Below are positions 6,090 through 42,432 of a stretch of 57,554 bases of DNA, piece by piece. The notes under the pieces are model-generated. The model ran no database searches and was not told the DNA's origin. It saw nothing but the letters and a program-made list of their open reading frames with translations. The DNA is from a bacterium. Lineage in GTDB: Bacteria; Bacteroidota; Ignavibacteria; Kapaibacteriales; UBA2268. Made by a program: the position numbers and the translations under genes. The DNA lies in assembly GCA_030431515.1 (NCBI GenBank), contig JAUIIX010000012.1, positions 1 through 57,554 on the forward strand. Reading direction: 5' to 3'. The stretch's first letter is position 1; each line of letters opens with the position of its first letter.

Positions 6090-7049
6090 ATGTTTATGCT
6101 TTTTATTTCTTCTTAATTTATCCTTCCTTTTTAATTAATTTTTGATTATTTTATTTTTGGTATTTTTATTGTATTAGCTATGCTGAATATTTTGTGTTAT
6201 CCTCCGGATGAAAAAAATTGCTGGAAATGCCGGTGTTTTTTTGTTTTTGTAAAGAACTGGATTCAGAATTACGTTGGAAATTTTTGGGAGATTCTTCACT
6301 AGGTTCAGAATAACCTAGAGTTTTTTATGGATTCATCGCTTCGCTCTGAATGACGAAACATTTCGACTCCGCTCAATGACCCAGTTTTTTGCAGTTTTTT
6401 GCAGTGATTTTTTTGTGCTTTTAGTTATTTTTTGCATTTCTATTCTTTGTAAATTATTGTTATATAAAGTATTATATCATTCCTGCAGTTTTTGCAGTTT
6501 TTCAAAGAACTGGGTTCAGAATTACGTTGGTAATTTTTGGGAGATTCTTCACCACGTTCTGAATGACGTAGAGTTTTTTGTGGATTCTTCGCTACGCTCT
6601 GAATGACGAAACATTTCGACTCCGCTCAATGACCCATTTTTTGCAGTTTTTGCAATTTTTGCAGTTTTTTTGCATTTTTTCAAAGAACTGGGTTCAGAAT
6701 TACGATTGAAATTTCTGGGAGATTCTTAGGCTACGCCTCAGAATGACATAGAGTTTTTTGTGGATTCTTCGCTACGCTCTGAATGACGAAACATTTCGAC
6801 TCCGCTCAATGACCCAGTTTTTGCAGTTTTTGCAATTTCTGCAGTTTTTTTGCATTTTTTCAAAGAACTGGGTTCAGAATTACGATTGAAATTTCTGGGA
6901 GATTCTTCACTACGTTCAGAATGACGTAACGTTTTTTTTGGATTCATCGCTTCGCTCTGAATGACGAGACATTTCGACTCCGCTCAATGACCCATTTTTT
7001 GCAGTTTTTTGCAGTTTTTTGCAGTGATTTTTTTTAAATATTTTTAAAA
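6090..7049. repeat. Array of four ~180-bp HSERSEES-type intergenic repeat units
   Basis: This 960-base gap holds no convincing gene. It carries four copies of one unit, each opening with a form of caaagaactgggttcagaa: about 6250, 6503, 6681 and 6861. The spacings are 253 (a roughly 70-base insertion at about 6420-6485), 178 and 180. Each unit runs: caaagaactggg, a gattcttc...cagaatgac block, a second gattcttcgctacgctctgaa block, catttcgactccgctcaatg, then ttttttgcag runs. Read on the minus strand the blocks translate as RHSERSEES and SLSGVEMF, known as spurious peptides in Bacteroidota annotations. Units 3 and 4 are nearly identical over the first 50 bases, whereas unit 1 is the most diverged. 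The stretch 6090-6249 is AT-rich with nothing else visible. Confidence 0.9.
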
Positions 7050-36994: not shown

Positions 36995-37969
36995 ATGAAG
37001 TTTACTTTATCTTCCTTACAAATAAATGAAATAATAAAAGGCGAACTAATCGGTTCGCCTAATCTATTTTTTTCAAGTTTGCAGAGAATTGAATTTGCAA
37101 ATGAAAAGGATATTAGTTTTTGTCAATCATCTGATTATTTAGAAATTGCATTGGATAAGAAACCTGGTTTATTAATTATATATCCAGAATCTGAGTATAA
37201 TGCAAATGATAATCAAGCTGTAATTTATCACAAAAATCCATACTTTGCATTTGCTCAACTATTAATTTACATTAATGAGAATTTTAATAAGCAATCTGGT
37301 ATAAGCGAAAAAGCGATTATAAGTGAAGCAGCAACTATTGGCAAGAACCCGACAATACTTGAAAATGTTGTGATTTGTAATGATGTTGTTATTGGTGATA
37401 ATTGCTTTATTCATCAAAATGTTACGATAAAATCAGATACTATAATAGGAGATAATGTAATAATTCATCCAGGTGCTGTAATTGGATCTGATGGCTTTGG
37501 TTATTTAGATAATCCTGATGGCTCTTACACTAAGATTCCTCAATTAGGAAATGTAGTAATTGGTAATAATGTAGAAATAGGTGCAAACACTTGTGTTGAT
37601 AGAGCTTTAATTGGTTCTACAATAATAAATAATGGTGTTAAAATAGATAATTTAGTACAGATTGCTCATAATGTGATTATTGGTGAAAATAGCGCATTTG
37701 CTTCTCAAGTTGGAATATCAGGCAGTGCAACTATAGGAAAAAGAGTTAGAATGGGTGGTCAAGTTGGCTCATCTGGTCATCTTGAAATAGCCGATGATGT
37801 AACTATAATCGCTCAATCAGGAGTTGCTAAATCTATTGAGAAAAAAGGAATTTACTTTGGCACACCTGTTAAACCAAGATTAGAAGCATTTAAAATTGAA
37901 GCAATTATAAAAAATCTACCTGCTATGTTTAACGATATTAAAGATATTAAGAAAAAATTAGATAATTAA
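36995..37969 (+). CDS. lpxD: UDP-3-O-acylglucosamine N-acyltransferase LpxD
   Basis: This encodes 324 residues. It adds the second acyl chain in lipid A synthesis, using acyl-ACP. An N-terminal uridine-binding region (about 1-100) precedes a left-handed beta-helix of hexapeptide repeats: IGDNCFIHQNVTIKSDTIIGDNVIIHPGAVIGSDGFGY and onward. The catalytic His is in VQIAHNVIIGEN near 226. GGQVGSSGHLEIADDVTI and GTPVKPRLE complete the typical C-terminal half. It follows three OmpH genes in one operon. Its stop overlaps that of the convergent cas6 gene by 4 bases, leaving no room for a terminator. Confidence 0.96.
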   Translation: MKFTLSSLQINEIIKGELIGSPNLFFSSLQRIEFANEKDISFCQSSDYLEIALDKKPGLLIIYPESEYNANDNQAVIYHKNPYFAFAQLLIYINENFNKQSGISEKAIISEAATIGKNPTILENVVICNDVVIGDNCFIHQNVTIKSDTIIGDNVIIHPGAVIGSDGFGYLDNPDGSYTKIPQLGNVVIGNNVEIGANTCVDRALIGSTIINNGVKIDNLVQIAHNVIIGENSAFASQVGISGSATIGKRVRMGGQVGSSGHLEIADDVTIIAQSGVAKSIEKKGIYFGTPVKPRLEAFKIEAIIKNLPAMFNDIKDIKKKLDN

Positions 37970-38874
37970 TTTTTTCCAAATTTAAAAAGATTTTTAACTT
38001 TACTCAGAATACCATCTTCATTAGTTTGAGTTGTTTCGGAGTTTTGGACTTCTATTTGTTGTGAGCTATCAATATTCTGAACTTCAATTTCTTCAACTTT
38101 GGGTAATAATTTCAGACTACCAAAACCAAATTTGTTTTTCATTCCAATACCACAAGTATAAGCAATATATTGCATTTCTGGACTTGCTTCTATAGTTAGG
38201 GGGCAGTAAAAAGAACGAATTTTATACTCTTTTTCAGTATTCTCTTTCATTGTAATTAACTTAGTTACTTTTCTAACTTTTTGATATTCTTCATCAAAAA
38301 ATAAGTTAATTTCTCCATCATATTCTTTTTTATAAACTAATTCATATTTTATTTTTAAATCATAAATTAATTTTTTTTCAAGAGTGCCATCACCGATTTT
38401 ATAAAAATGCCCGTAATTTCCAGTAAAGTAACAAGAAGAAGAAGTCATTCTATATTTACTAATTTCTTCAAATTCGACTTCATCTTGTTCAACTACATCA
38501 GTTATTATAAATTCTTGATTTTCTCTTTTCGCAGGATAAAAATGAATATCATTTCCTTTAAAAAGCTCTATTAAATAATCTTTTATTTCTTTATCAAATA
38601 TCGGAGCCGAAAATGTGAGTTCGATATTGCCACTACTTGTGATAGTAGCAGTTGATATATCTATAACTTTATCATTCATAAAATGAATATTCGAAAAATT
38701 ATAGAGATAGTATCGTCCATTTCTATTTGTATATTTATTCTTTGTTGCCCATTCTTTAAATTCTTCTTTAGCATTATCAAAAATAATAAAAAATGAGATG
38801 TAGAGGTAGTATTGATAATTAAGTGGCAAAGTGAAATCGTTGTTTTTTGGTTCTAATGTAAGTGTAAGACGCAT
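37966..38874 (-). CDS. cas6: Orphan CRISPR-associated endoribonuclease Cas6-like protein
   Basis: This encodes 302 residues. Cas6 normally cuts CRISPR precursor RNA. Evidence: the start MRLTLTLEPKN, PLNYQYYLY, YNFSNIHF, an IELTFSAPI strand and, decisively, the Gly-rich loop GIGMKNKFGFG near 242-252, matching GhGxxxxxGhG. Where many Cas6 proteins have the catalytic His (xFLHxxGF), this protein reads EFKEWATKNKY, with Thr44 at the expected place, so cleavage activity is doubtful. A tail of about 45 residues after the loop holds two EVQN repeats and ends SKVKNLFKFGKN. No CRISPR array or other cas gene is in the window. Confidence 0.8.
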   Translation of the reverse strand: MRLTLTLEPKNNDFTLPLNYQYYLYISFFIIFDNAKEEFKEWATKNKYTNRNGRYYLYNFSNIHFMNDKVIDISTATITSSGNIELTFSAPIFDKEIKDYLIELFKGNDIHFYPAKRENQEFIITDVVEQDEVEFEEISKYRMTSSSCYFTGNYGHFYKIGDGTLEKKLIYDLKIKYELVYKKEYDGEINLFFDEEYQKVRKVTKLITMKENTEKEYKIRSFYCPLTIEASPEMQYIAYTCGIGMKNKFGFGSLKLLPKVEEIEVQNIDSSQQIEVQNSETTQTNEDGILSKVKNLFKFGKN

Positions 38875-39028: not shown

Positions 39029-39081
39029 AAAAATTAATTGTCTTCAAAAACTATACTCTTTAAAAAATTCCTTAATTTTGT
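39029..39081 (+). repeat. 53-bp direct repeat, left copy
   Basis: This is identical to 41175-41227 over all 53 bases. It ends in TAATTTTGT, a Bacteroidota-type -7 promoter pattern, 82 bases before the endonuclease ATG, so it may bring a promoter to the R-M genes. Confidence 0.95.
39073..39080 (+). promoter_or_regulatory. Possible promoter -7 element of the restriction-modification genes
   Basis: TAATTTTG fits TAnnTTTG. No good -33 TTTG is placed upstream, so the call is weak. It is shared with the copy before mnmA. Confidence 0.35.
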
Positions 39082-39162
39082 GGATAATAATAGTTGTATT
39101 CAAGAAACTGAATATATTTTCAATTCGATATATTAAAAAAAAGATACTAAAGGTATTACATT

Positions 39163-40002
39163 ATGTCTAAGAAAAATCAATCAGAAAGATTAACTACTCA
39201 ACATAAAGAATCAAAAGGTGCAGAAGGTATTTATGGTATCAATGCAAAATCGCACGACTCCTCTGTTAGAGATATATCAAAACTTGTTATTCAAGAACTT
39301 GCATCTGAATATCCTAAATTAACTTTTCAATTTAAAAAAAGTATAAGAAAAGAAGAAATAAATGAAGCTCTAAATAAAATTGATTCAGATTTAGGGAAAA
39401 CCCTTTTCGTTTCAAATTCAAGCATTATTCCTGATGGTGGAATAATTGAAGTGGAAGATGATAAAGGTAATTGGAGAATAGTTCTAGTATCGGAAGCAAA
39501 ACATCAAGGAAAGGATATTGAAAATATTAAAAATGGTAAATTAGTTGGTAAGAAAAATAATCAAGACTTAATGGCTGCTGGCAATGCAATAGAAAGGTCG
39601 CATAAAAATATTTCAGAAATTGCAAATTTAATGTTGGCTGAATCTCATTTTCCTTATGTTTTATTTTTGGAGGGTTCAAATTTTTTAACAGAAACCATTT
39701 CAATTAAAAGGCCAGACGAAAGTGTTGTAACACTTGAATATGATTCAGGAACGTTAAACAGATTAGATAGATTGACCGCCGCTAATTATGGAATGCAAAT
39801 TAATGCTAATTTATGCAAAAATAAGTTTGTTAAGCATAAAGATAAAACTATTATGTTACAAGCAACGTCTATTTATACTCAAGGTAATGGAGAGAAATGG
39901 AATGATATAGATATGTTTAATATTATGTTCGAAATTTCAAAAACCTCTCTTGAAATTTTGGAAAGTGATTTATCTAATCAGATAACCAAAATTGATAATT
40001 AA
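39163..40002 (+). CDS. ecoRIR: Type II restriction endonuclease, EcoRI family (predicted GAATTC)
   Basis: This encodes 279 residues. Large blocks are near-identical to my memory of R.EcoRI (277 residues): NEALNKIDSDLG, LFVSNSSI, EAKHQGKDI, NQDLMAAGNAIERSHKNISEIAN, ESHFPYVLFLEGSNFLTE, LNRLDRLTAANYGM. The catalytic Asp91, Glu111 and Lys113 (PDGG...EAK) fall at exactly the EcoRI positions. The recognition-loop blocks AGNAIERSHKN and AANYGM also match, so GAATTC specificity is expected. It forms a homodimer cutting unmodified DNA. The methyltransferase follows 31 bases later. It is clearly of horizontal origin in this genome. Confidence 0.95.
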   Translation: MSKKNQSERLTTQHKESKGAEGIYGINAKSHDSSVRDISKLVIQELASEYPKLTFQFKKSIRKEEINEALNKIDSDLGKTLFVSNSSIIPDGGIIEVEDDKGNWRIVLVSEAKHQGKDIENIKNGKLVGKKNNQDLMAAGNAIERSHKNISEIANLMLAESHFPYVLFLEGSNFLTETISIKRPDESVVTLEYDSGTLNRLDRLTAANYGMQINANLCKNKFVKHKDKTIMLQATSIYTQGNGEKWNDIDMFNIMFEISKTSLEILESDLSNQITKIDN

Positions 40003-40033
40003 AAAGGAATTATTAAATCGATAAAGGTGGATA

Positions 40034-41068
40034 ATGGCAAGAAACGCAACAAATAAATTGCTTCAAAAAGCTAAAAAATCAAAAAGTGACGAATTTTACA
40101 CTCAAATTTCAGATATAGAAAGTGAGTTGCAATTTTATAAAAAACATTTTAAAAACAAAGTAGTTTATTGCAATTGCGACGACCCAAGAACAAGTAATTT
40201 TTTTAATTATTTTGTGACAAATTTCAAGGAATTAGGTCTAAAAAAATTAATAACTTCTTGTTATAGAAAGCAAGAAAACAACTTATTTAGCACCGAAGAA
40301 AATGAAAAAGGTTTTTACTTTGAATACGTTGGCGGAGATTTTGAAAAAAATAAACTCAATACATTTGATTTAATACCATTTAAAGGCGATGGAGATTTTA
40401 GAAGTGTTGAAAGTATTGAATTATTAAAACAATCCGATATTGTAGTAACGAATCCTCCTTTTTCTTTATTCAGGGAGTTTGTTGCTCAATTAGTTAAATA
40501 CGATAAAAAGTTTTTGATAATAGGTAACATAAACGCAATCACTTATAAAGAAATTTTCAAATTAATTAAAGAAAATAAAGCCTGGTTAGGAATAAATCTT
40601 GGTAGAGGCATTTCTGGTTTTATTGTTCCCGAACATTACGAACTTTACGGAACAGAAGCACGGATTGATAGTGAAGGCAATAGAATAGTTTCCCCAAATA
40701 ATTGTTTATGGCTGACTAATTTAGATAATTTACAACGGCATAAAGATATAGAACTTACAAAAAGATATTATGGAAATGAAGCAAAATACCCAAAATACGA
40801 CAATTATGACGGAATCAATGTTGATAAAACACAAGACATACCTTTAGACTATAACGGAACTATGGGTGTACCAATAACATTTTTGCATAAGTTTAATCCT
40901 GACCAATTTGAAATTATTAAATTTAGAAAAGGAAATGATGAAAAAGATTTAGCAATTGATGGGAAATGTCCATATTTTCGAATTCTAATCAGAAATAAAC
41001 GTATCCAAAATAAAATATTTGAAGAAAGTAACAAAAGCCAGCAAGTTTCTGCATATATGTGGCAATAG
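40034..41068 (+). CDS. ecoRIM: EcoRI-family DNA adenine methyltransferase
   Basis: This encodes 344 residues. It methylates an adenine in GAATTC and protects host DNA from the neighbouring endonuclease. Its start MARNATNKLLQKAKKSKSDEFYTQ, VVYCNCDDP, the catalytic SDIVVTNPPFSLF, GRGISGFIVPEHYELYGTEARID and PITFLHKFNP match M.EcoRI as I know it. It is about 18 residues longer at the C-terminus (after RIQNKIFEESNKSQQ). A GAATTC site lies within the gene (40980-40985). The R-before-M order is the same as in the EcoRI plasmid system. No terminator hairpin was seen after it. Confidence 0.95.
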   Translation: MARNATNKLLQKAKKSKSDEFYTQISDIESELQFYKKHFKNKVVYCNCDDPRTSNFFNYFVTNFKELGLKKLITSCYRKQENNLFSTEENEKGFYFEYVGGDFEKNKLNTFDLIPFKGDGDFRSVESIELLKQSDIVVTNPPFSLFREFVAQLVKYDKKFLIIGNINAITYKEIFKLIKENKAWLGINLGRGISGFIVPEHYELYGTEARIDSEGNRIVSPNNCLWLTNLDNLQRHKDIELTKRYYGNEAKYPKYDNYDGINVDKTQDIPLDYNGTMGVPITFLHKFNPDQFEIIKFRKGNDEKDLAIDGKCPYFRILIRNKRIQNKIFEESNKSQQVSAYMWQ

Positions 41069-41174
41069 TCTGGTAAATGTTATAATTGTATTTTAGAAAT
41101 AATTTTTAATTTAAAAACATATAAATCCATTCTTTAAATTTAGTTTAAAACCACAAATGTAATTCATTTAGTTT

Positions 41175-41227
41175 AAAAATTAATTGTCTTCAAAAACTAT
41201 ACTCTTTAAAAAATTCCTTAATTTTGT
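41175..41227 (+). repeat. 53-bp direct repeat, right copy (mnmA leader)
   Basis: This is identical to 39029-39081. It ends 23 bases before the mnmA ATG, so this copy is probably the native mnmA promoter or leader and the left copy the duplicate. Confidence 0.95.
41219..41226 (+). promoter_or_regulatory. Possible promoter -7 element of mnmA
   Basis: TAATTTTG (TAnnTTTG type) lies 24 bases before the ATG within the right direct repeat. No Shine-Dalgarno is visible before mnmA, as is common in this phylum. Confidence 0.4.
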
Positions 41228-41250: not shown

Positions 41251-42432
41251 ATGCAAAAAAAAATTAAAAAAGTTATAATTGGGCTATCAGGTGGAGTTGA
41301 TTCAAGTGTAGCAGCTAAATTGTTAAAAGATCAAGGTTATGATTTAACAGCTGTATTTATGCAAAACTGGGACGATACTACTGGTCTTCTTGATGGTGAT
41401 TGCCATTGGGAAGATGATTGGAATTTTGCTCAATTAGTTGCAAAACAACTTGATATTCCTATTTCAAAATTAGATTTATCCGCAGAGTATAGTAAACGTA
41501 TTGTTAATTATATGTTCGAAGAATATGAAAAAGGTAGAACTCCAAACCCTGATATTCTTTGTAATCGTGAAATAAAATTTGATGCTTTTATTGATGCTGT
41601 CAAAGATTTGAAAGCTGATGCAATTGCTACTGGTCATTATTGCGGAACTGAGTATGATAGTTCAACAAATGAATTCAAATTAATAACTGGGATTGATACT
41701 AATAAAGACCAAAGTTATTTTTTATCACAGTTGAACCAAGAGCAATTAAGCAAAGCACTTTTTCCTTTAGTTGATATTGAAAAACCAAAAGTTAGGGAAC
41801 TTGCTAAAGAATTTAACTTGCCTACATCTAACAAGAAAGATTCTCAGGGATTATGTTTTATTGGAAAGGTTGATTTACCTACTTTTTTAAAGCAACAACT
41901 AATTCCTCGACCTGGAAAAGTAATCGAAATAGATTTTGAAACTGGATTGAGAATTCACTCGGAAAAAGTTTTTAATAATTTAGATGATAAATGTTCTAAC
42001 TATTCAATTAATGAAAATGATGGAAAAGTAGTAGGCCAACATCAAGGTGTACAATTTTATACAATTGGTCAAAGGAAAGGTTTAAACTTAGGTGGATTTC
42101 CTAAGCCATTATATATTTTAAATATAGATAATGCAAAAAATATTATTTATGTAGGTCAAGGAGAAAACCATCCTTTATTGCATAGAATTGGATTAAAAAT
42201 AAAAAATGAAGATGTTCATTGGATTAGGGAATCGAAAAAATTAAAAGTTAGCGAAGAAAAAGAATTTTTAGTAAGATTTAGACATCGTCAAAATTTAGAA
42301 AAAGCTAAATTAATGCAAAAAGAAGATTTTTTATACATTGTTTTTGAAAAAGAACAAAAAGGTATATCCCCAGGGCAATTTGCAGCATGGTACGAAGGTA
42401 GAGAATGTTGTGGGTCTGGTGAAATTTATTAA
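41251..42432 (+). CDS. mnmA: tRNA-specific 2-thiouridylase MnmA
   Basis: This encodes 393 residues. It installs the 2-thio group at U34 of Lys, Glu and Gln tRNAs. The PP-loop ATP motif GLSGGVDSSVAAKLL is at residues 9-23 and QNWDD follows. The catalytic Cys is in NPDILCNREIKF near 110, and the second Cys (persulfide) in DSQGLCFIGK near 204. FYTIGQRKGLNLGG and ISPGQFAAWY mark the tRNA-binding and barrel C-terminal domains. The C-terminal region carries an extra CC in REGRECCGSG-like sequence, common in this family. It is followed by rpe in the same direction. Confidence 0.96.
   Translation: MQKKIKKVIIGLSGGVDSSVAAKLLKDQGYDLTAVFMQNWDDTTGLLDGDCHWEDDWNFAQLVAKQLDIPISKLDLSAEYSKRIVNYMFEEYEKGRTPNPDILCNREIKFDAFIDAVKDLKADAIATGHYCGTEYDSSTNEFKLITGIDTNKDQSYFLSQLNQEQLSKALFPLVDIEKPKVRELAKEFNLPTSNKKDSQGLCFIGKVDLPTFLKQQLIPRPGKVIEIDFETGLRIHSEKVFNNLDDKCSNYSINENDGKVVGQHQGVQFYTIGQRKGLNLGGFPKPLYILNIDNAKNIIYVGQGENHPLLHRIGLKIKNEDVHWIRESKKLKVSEEKEFLVRFRHRQNLEKAKLMQKEDFLYIVFEKEQKGISPGQFAAWYEGRECCGSGEIY

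Follow-up and report, generated by a model that had tools for sequence, protein, structure and literature searches.

An EcoRI-type restriction–modification unit enclosed by perfect 53-bp direct repeats upstream of mnmA

How does a pair of restriction–modification (R-M) genes without a recombinase of its own come to lie between two identical copies of a 53-bp sequence, the second of which leads into the tRNA modification gene mnmA? The locus is part of a 57,554-nucleotide stretch of DNA, analysed at its full length and here called the window, from a bacterium of the Kapaibacteriales whose species is represented here by one genome. A first-pass annotation had described identical 53-bp repeats that bracket the R-M genes, with only these two genes and no recombinase in between, and both statements hold. 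The copies at 39029-39081 and 41175-41227 agree in 53/53 bases at a start-to-start spacing of 2,146 bp. As judged from open reading frames and Pfam matches, the insert of 2,093 bp (39082-41174) contains the endonuclease gene R (39163-40002) and the methyltransferase gene M (40034-41068) only; a recombinase or transposase ORF between the repeat copies was not found, nor any other ORF of note. The locus is composed of the following features.

37966 to 38874, minus strand: Cas6-like gene, left neighbour (Pfam PF01881, 1.6e-11)
39029 to 39081, plus strand: left repeat copy, presumed target duplication, with TAATTTTG at 39073-39080
39082 to 39162, plus strand: left insert end and R leader, with an imperfect -7-like box TATATTTT at 39113-39120
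39163 to 40002, plus strand: EcoRI-type restriction endonuclease, 279 aa (Pfam PF02963, 3.8e-140; phmmer 6.4e-125 to R.EcoRI 1ckq)
40034 to 41068, plus strand: EcoRI-type adenine methyltransferase, 344 aa (Pfam PF13651, EcoRI_methylase, 1.3e-131)
41069 to 41174, plus strand: right insert end, non-coding
41175 to 41227, plus strand: right repeat copy with the likely mnmA promoter box TAATTTTG at 41219-41226
41251 to 42432, plus strand: mnmA (tRNA 2-thiouridylase), right neighbour (Pfam tRNA_Me_trans, 7.3e-76)

Both family matches assign the R-M pair to the EcoRI-type type II systems, and alignment to R.EcoRI indicates that the catalytic stretches PDGG and EAKHQGK are kept in R. As in the EcoRI system, R precedes M on one strand, and both proteins match their families, EcoRI and EcoRI_methylase, over the full length. 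EcoRI itself is plasmid-borne, whereas the window unit resides on a chromosomal contig and is bracketed by the 53-bp repeats. With a G+C content of 0.287 (R) and 0.284 (M), the two genes match the window as a whole (0.285), so that base composition offers no hint of a recent foreign origin. GAATTC, the predicted recognition sequence, occurs at 0.45 of its Markov expectation (867 kb), and other palindromes are depleted equally or more, so that its avoidance is uninformative as a sign of long residence. None of the examined neighbours of the Cas6-like gene beside the insert is a further cas gene; the sole Cas1 match is found on a different contig (G000:C28, L189), which also carries a CRISPR array of about 27 units with a period of 66.

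Chance is an almost negligible explanation for the repeat pair, since in ten window sequences simulated with an order-3 Markov model the exact direct repeats reached no more than 17-20 bp, compared with 53 exact bases here. The same low probability applies to an assembly artefact. The assembly is fragmented into 160 contigs, which would favour such an artefact, but a single contig of 57.6 kb contains both copies, and the repeat falls short of the 127-bp overlaps seen at the ends of one contig, which makes a repeat-induced misassembly unlikely. An assembly word length of 127 is suggested by the terminal overlap on contig C27 (G000:C27, L188; 3,565 bp), which begins and ends with the same 127 bases. 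This contig carries a single long ORF of 699 aa and represents either a circular molecule of 3.4 kb or a repeat in the assembly. A dispersed repeat across the genome, which the first-pass annotation had named as one of two findings that would speak against insertion, is ruled out: allowing up to three mismatches, the 3.55-Mb assembly contains only two copies of the 53-bp sequence.

In the 867 kb of this genome that were scanned, direct repeats in the 40-180 bp range are not uncommon. The longer cases inspected are mostly paralogue pairs, dispersed repeats or tandem arrays, with one set forming the CRISPR array, and most of the 17 that were checked continue into similarity on at least one side. 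Only the window pair, which is sharp-edged with no similarity past its edges, and the pair C15:124035/125657, which adjoins paralogues, share no 10-mers on either side. Within the window, the intergenic region 6270-7040 contains a cluster of repeated units of 40-68 bp (CGCTCTGAATGACGAAACATTTCGACTCCGCTCAATGACCCA), related stretches of which occur elsewhere in the genome. The frequency of local duplications in this size range would be compatible with an mnmA leader that was duplicated before or independently, with the R-M genes moving in between the copies or taking the place of earlier content. We consider such a history distinctly unlikely, as both copies directly border the R-M unit without additional genes, similarity does not continue past them, no remnant of a second mnmA is present, and two events would be needed instead of one.

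The position of the right copy relates the repeat to the mnmA promoter. Boxes of the form TAnnTTTG, which we take to be the Bacteroidota-type -7 element, precede about eight window genes at a distance of 32-77 bp, and the TAATTTTG of the right copy, 32 bp before the mnmA ATG, is likely the promoter box of this gene. The right copy had been described as abutting mnmA and ending with a promoter-like box. The box is present, but one further T follows it inside the repeat, and the repeat itself stops 23 bp before the ATG at 41251. In line with the proposal that R had thereby acquired the mnmA promoter, a copy of the box lies upstream of R, 90 bp before its start. Transcription of R from this copy is only possible, however, because, among the 72 relatives whose upstream sequence was long enough, 41 possess their own TAnnTTTG before R (versus 2 in a control stretch), mostly at a distance of 23-40 bp, while the window's own box TATATTTT at 39113, position -50, is imperfect.

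We propose, with a probability of about 0.7, that the 53-bp repeats are a target duplication produced when the EcoRI-type R-M unit inserted between cas6 and mnmA. A minimal unit of R, M and short flanks, devoid of a recombinase, would have entered the cas6-mnmA intergenic region and left one copy of the target on each side. If the target carried the mnmA promoter, the mnmA leader would have stayed intact and a second copy would have been placed upstream of R. The likely route is that host functions sealed an R-M fragment into a break with ends overlapping by 53 bp, either through a long stagger with fill-in or through copying repair. The junction without the R-M unit would read ...GGTGTTAAATAAAAATCGTGC, followed by one 53-bp copy and AAATCTTAAATTAAATTTTTGAAATG. 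Insertion with duplication is the best supported reading because the repeat is local and confined to two copies, the insert consists of the R-M genes only, and bracketing is enriched in the family (see below). The earlier claim that insertion copied the mnmA leader is in keeping with this local two-copy repeat, although we infer both the direction of the event and the break-repair route. Since all 53/53 repeat bases are identical, the locus is apparently a young example.

Whether the 53 bp belonged to the host or came with the unit bears directly on this model. The 53-bp repeat is absent from the viral contigs in which it was looked for, and its 24-nt core occurs in none of the other fetched loci, including 80 EcoRI-like loci of other genomes. 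As the core is missing from these 80 loci, the repeat is probably local host sequence and unlikely to travel with the R-M unit; the mnmA promoter box inside it, together with the missing core, makes a host target more plausible than a component of the mobile unit. The opposite course, arrival of the unit together with the 53 bp, for example on a circular molecule or plasmid that contained this sequence once, and homologous recombination with the mnmA leader, would produce the identical structure of one copy per end and nothing else, and the repeats would then mark a single crossover, not a staggered break. Recombination, either at insertion sequences or at 1-3 bp of identity, can indeed bring R-M DNA into a chromosome (PMC3031569). 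Circle integration nevertheless appears unlikely to us: besides the missing core in EcoRI-like loci and the negative search in viral contigs, the donor circle would have to contain this host's mnmA leader plus the R-M genes and nothing more.

Insertion of some R-M systems with long, variable target duplications on the order of 100 bp is known (PMC3874152), has been stated for all R-M system types (PMC3031569) and was seen in Helicobacter pylori (PMC1643837). These papers cite Nobusato 2000 and Furuta 2010 for the mode, which Kobayashi's group described from 2000 onward. The long duplication had been tentatively interpreted as a little-studied mode of insertion; it fits insertion, but the mode has been described since 2000 (PMC3874152, PMC3031569, PMC1643837). 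Such direct repeats permit amplification via unequal crossing-over (PMC3031569). The locus fits this known kind in that R-M genes alone are flanked by long direct repeats and no transposase is encoded. It differs by its EcoRI type, its Bacteroidota-type promoter boxes and a target that is a promoter region, and is known from one strain. Unlike a transposon or insertion sequence, the insert has neither a transposase nor terminal inverted repeats; its ends, read directly from the sequence, are GGATAATAATAG and CATTTAGTTT.

To place the locus within its family, EcoRI-like units with enough flank (67, window included) were compared with 158 pseudo-units of equal length from the same contigs, bracketing being defined as a same-strand repeat with a score of at least 16 within 400 bp on each side. 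Direct repeats bracket 13/67 units versus 1/158 control intervals, a roughly 30-fold higher frequency, and the sole bracketed control falls in the L080 array. The repeat sequences vary by locus. About seven of the 13 bracketed units resemble two-copy duplications:

L033: repeat of 102 bp
L085: repeat of 161 bp
window: repeat of 53 bp
L061: repeat of 62 bp
L073: repeat of 20 bp
L104: repeat of 17 bp
L076: repeat of 16 bp

The L085 repeat gives the impression of the end of a transposase gene, the L073 repeat duplicates half a terminator-like hairpin, and the bracketing repeat of L108 is a shared terminator-like hairpin. About five units (L080, L086, L060, L034 and L042) resemble repeat or cassette arrays with additional copies along the contig, and these look like the product of a different mechanism. 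Some of their repeats look like integron-type cassette sites; that of L042 has TAACAAGG...CGTTGCCT ends and a long complementary stem, with a folding z-score of only -1.7. Near the starts of many EcoRI-like units, about 60-110 bp upstream of R, a GTT...TGCAAGC motif is conserved in Bacteroidota, and a GTTATAC motif is found near the starts of others in Microcystis and Proteobacteria (L037, L042, L044, L059, L060, L063, L071, L072, L083; L038, L049, L068). These conserved motifs suggest that many EcoRI-like units travel as integron-type gene cassettes.

Several EcoRI relatives thus sit in multi-copy arrays with cassette-like motifs, which raises the question of whether the window repeats are themselves recombination sites, attL/attR-like or of the integron attC type, served by a site-specific recombinase encoded elsewhere. 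The window unit shares with integron cassettes that carry R-M genes the character of a small mobile R-M unit, and several of its EcoRI relatives are cassette-like. Its repeats, however, lack attC-like structure, are limited to two copies and do not lie in an array; they are perfect, AT-rich and fold weakly (z -1.2), and the unit is without a recombinase. We therefore regard recombination sites as a highly improbable origin of the pair.

Insertion with target duplication also has to be set against the relatives. The EcoRI gene is absent from both congeners compared (G001 and G002), as is a leader homologous to the 53-bp repeat before mnmA; in both genomes mnmA directly follows a different, unrelated gene and is not syntenic with the window, and no empty site with a single copy was seen there. 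Being missing from both congeners and matched in just 4/54 family genomes, the EcoRI-type unit is sporadic in the family. Four further methyltransferase loci in this genome (C25, C66, C138, C15) and three EcoRI loci from the family (G045, G023, G067) show no bracketing repeats. The bracketing signature is thus not a regular one, which counts against the insertion reading. In two of the family loci (G045:C126 and G023:C158) the endonuclease gene of the EcoRI-like unit is broken by a frameshift or stop codons, and the methyltransferase gene looks near full length.

New here are an EcoRI-type case in which a presumed target containing a promoter is duplicated exactly, and a survey across the family that counts bracketed EcoRI-like units against controls. 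A broader model, which we offer tentatively and hold to be rather unlikely, is that EcoRI-type units are recurrent, recombinase-free minimal mobile elements that would leave locus-specific duplications (~16 to 160 bp) in the leader and terminator regions of genes by way of break repair tied to the restriction activity itself. How R-M genes move without a recombinase has been a long-standing question since the first long target duplications were reported, and if empty alleles turn up, the lengths and positions of the duplications would constrain the repair mechanism.
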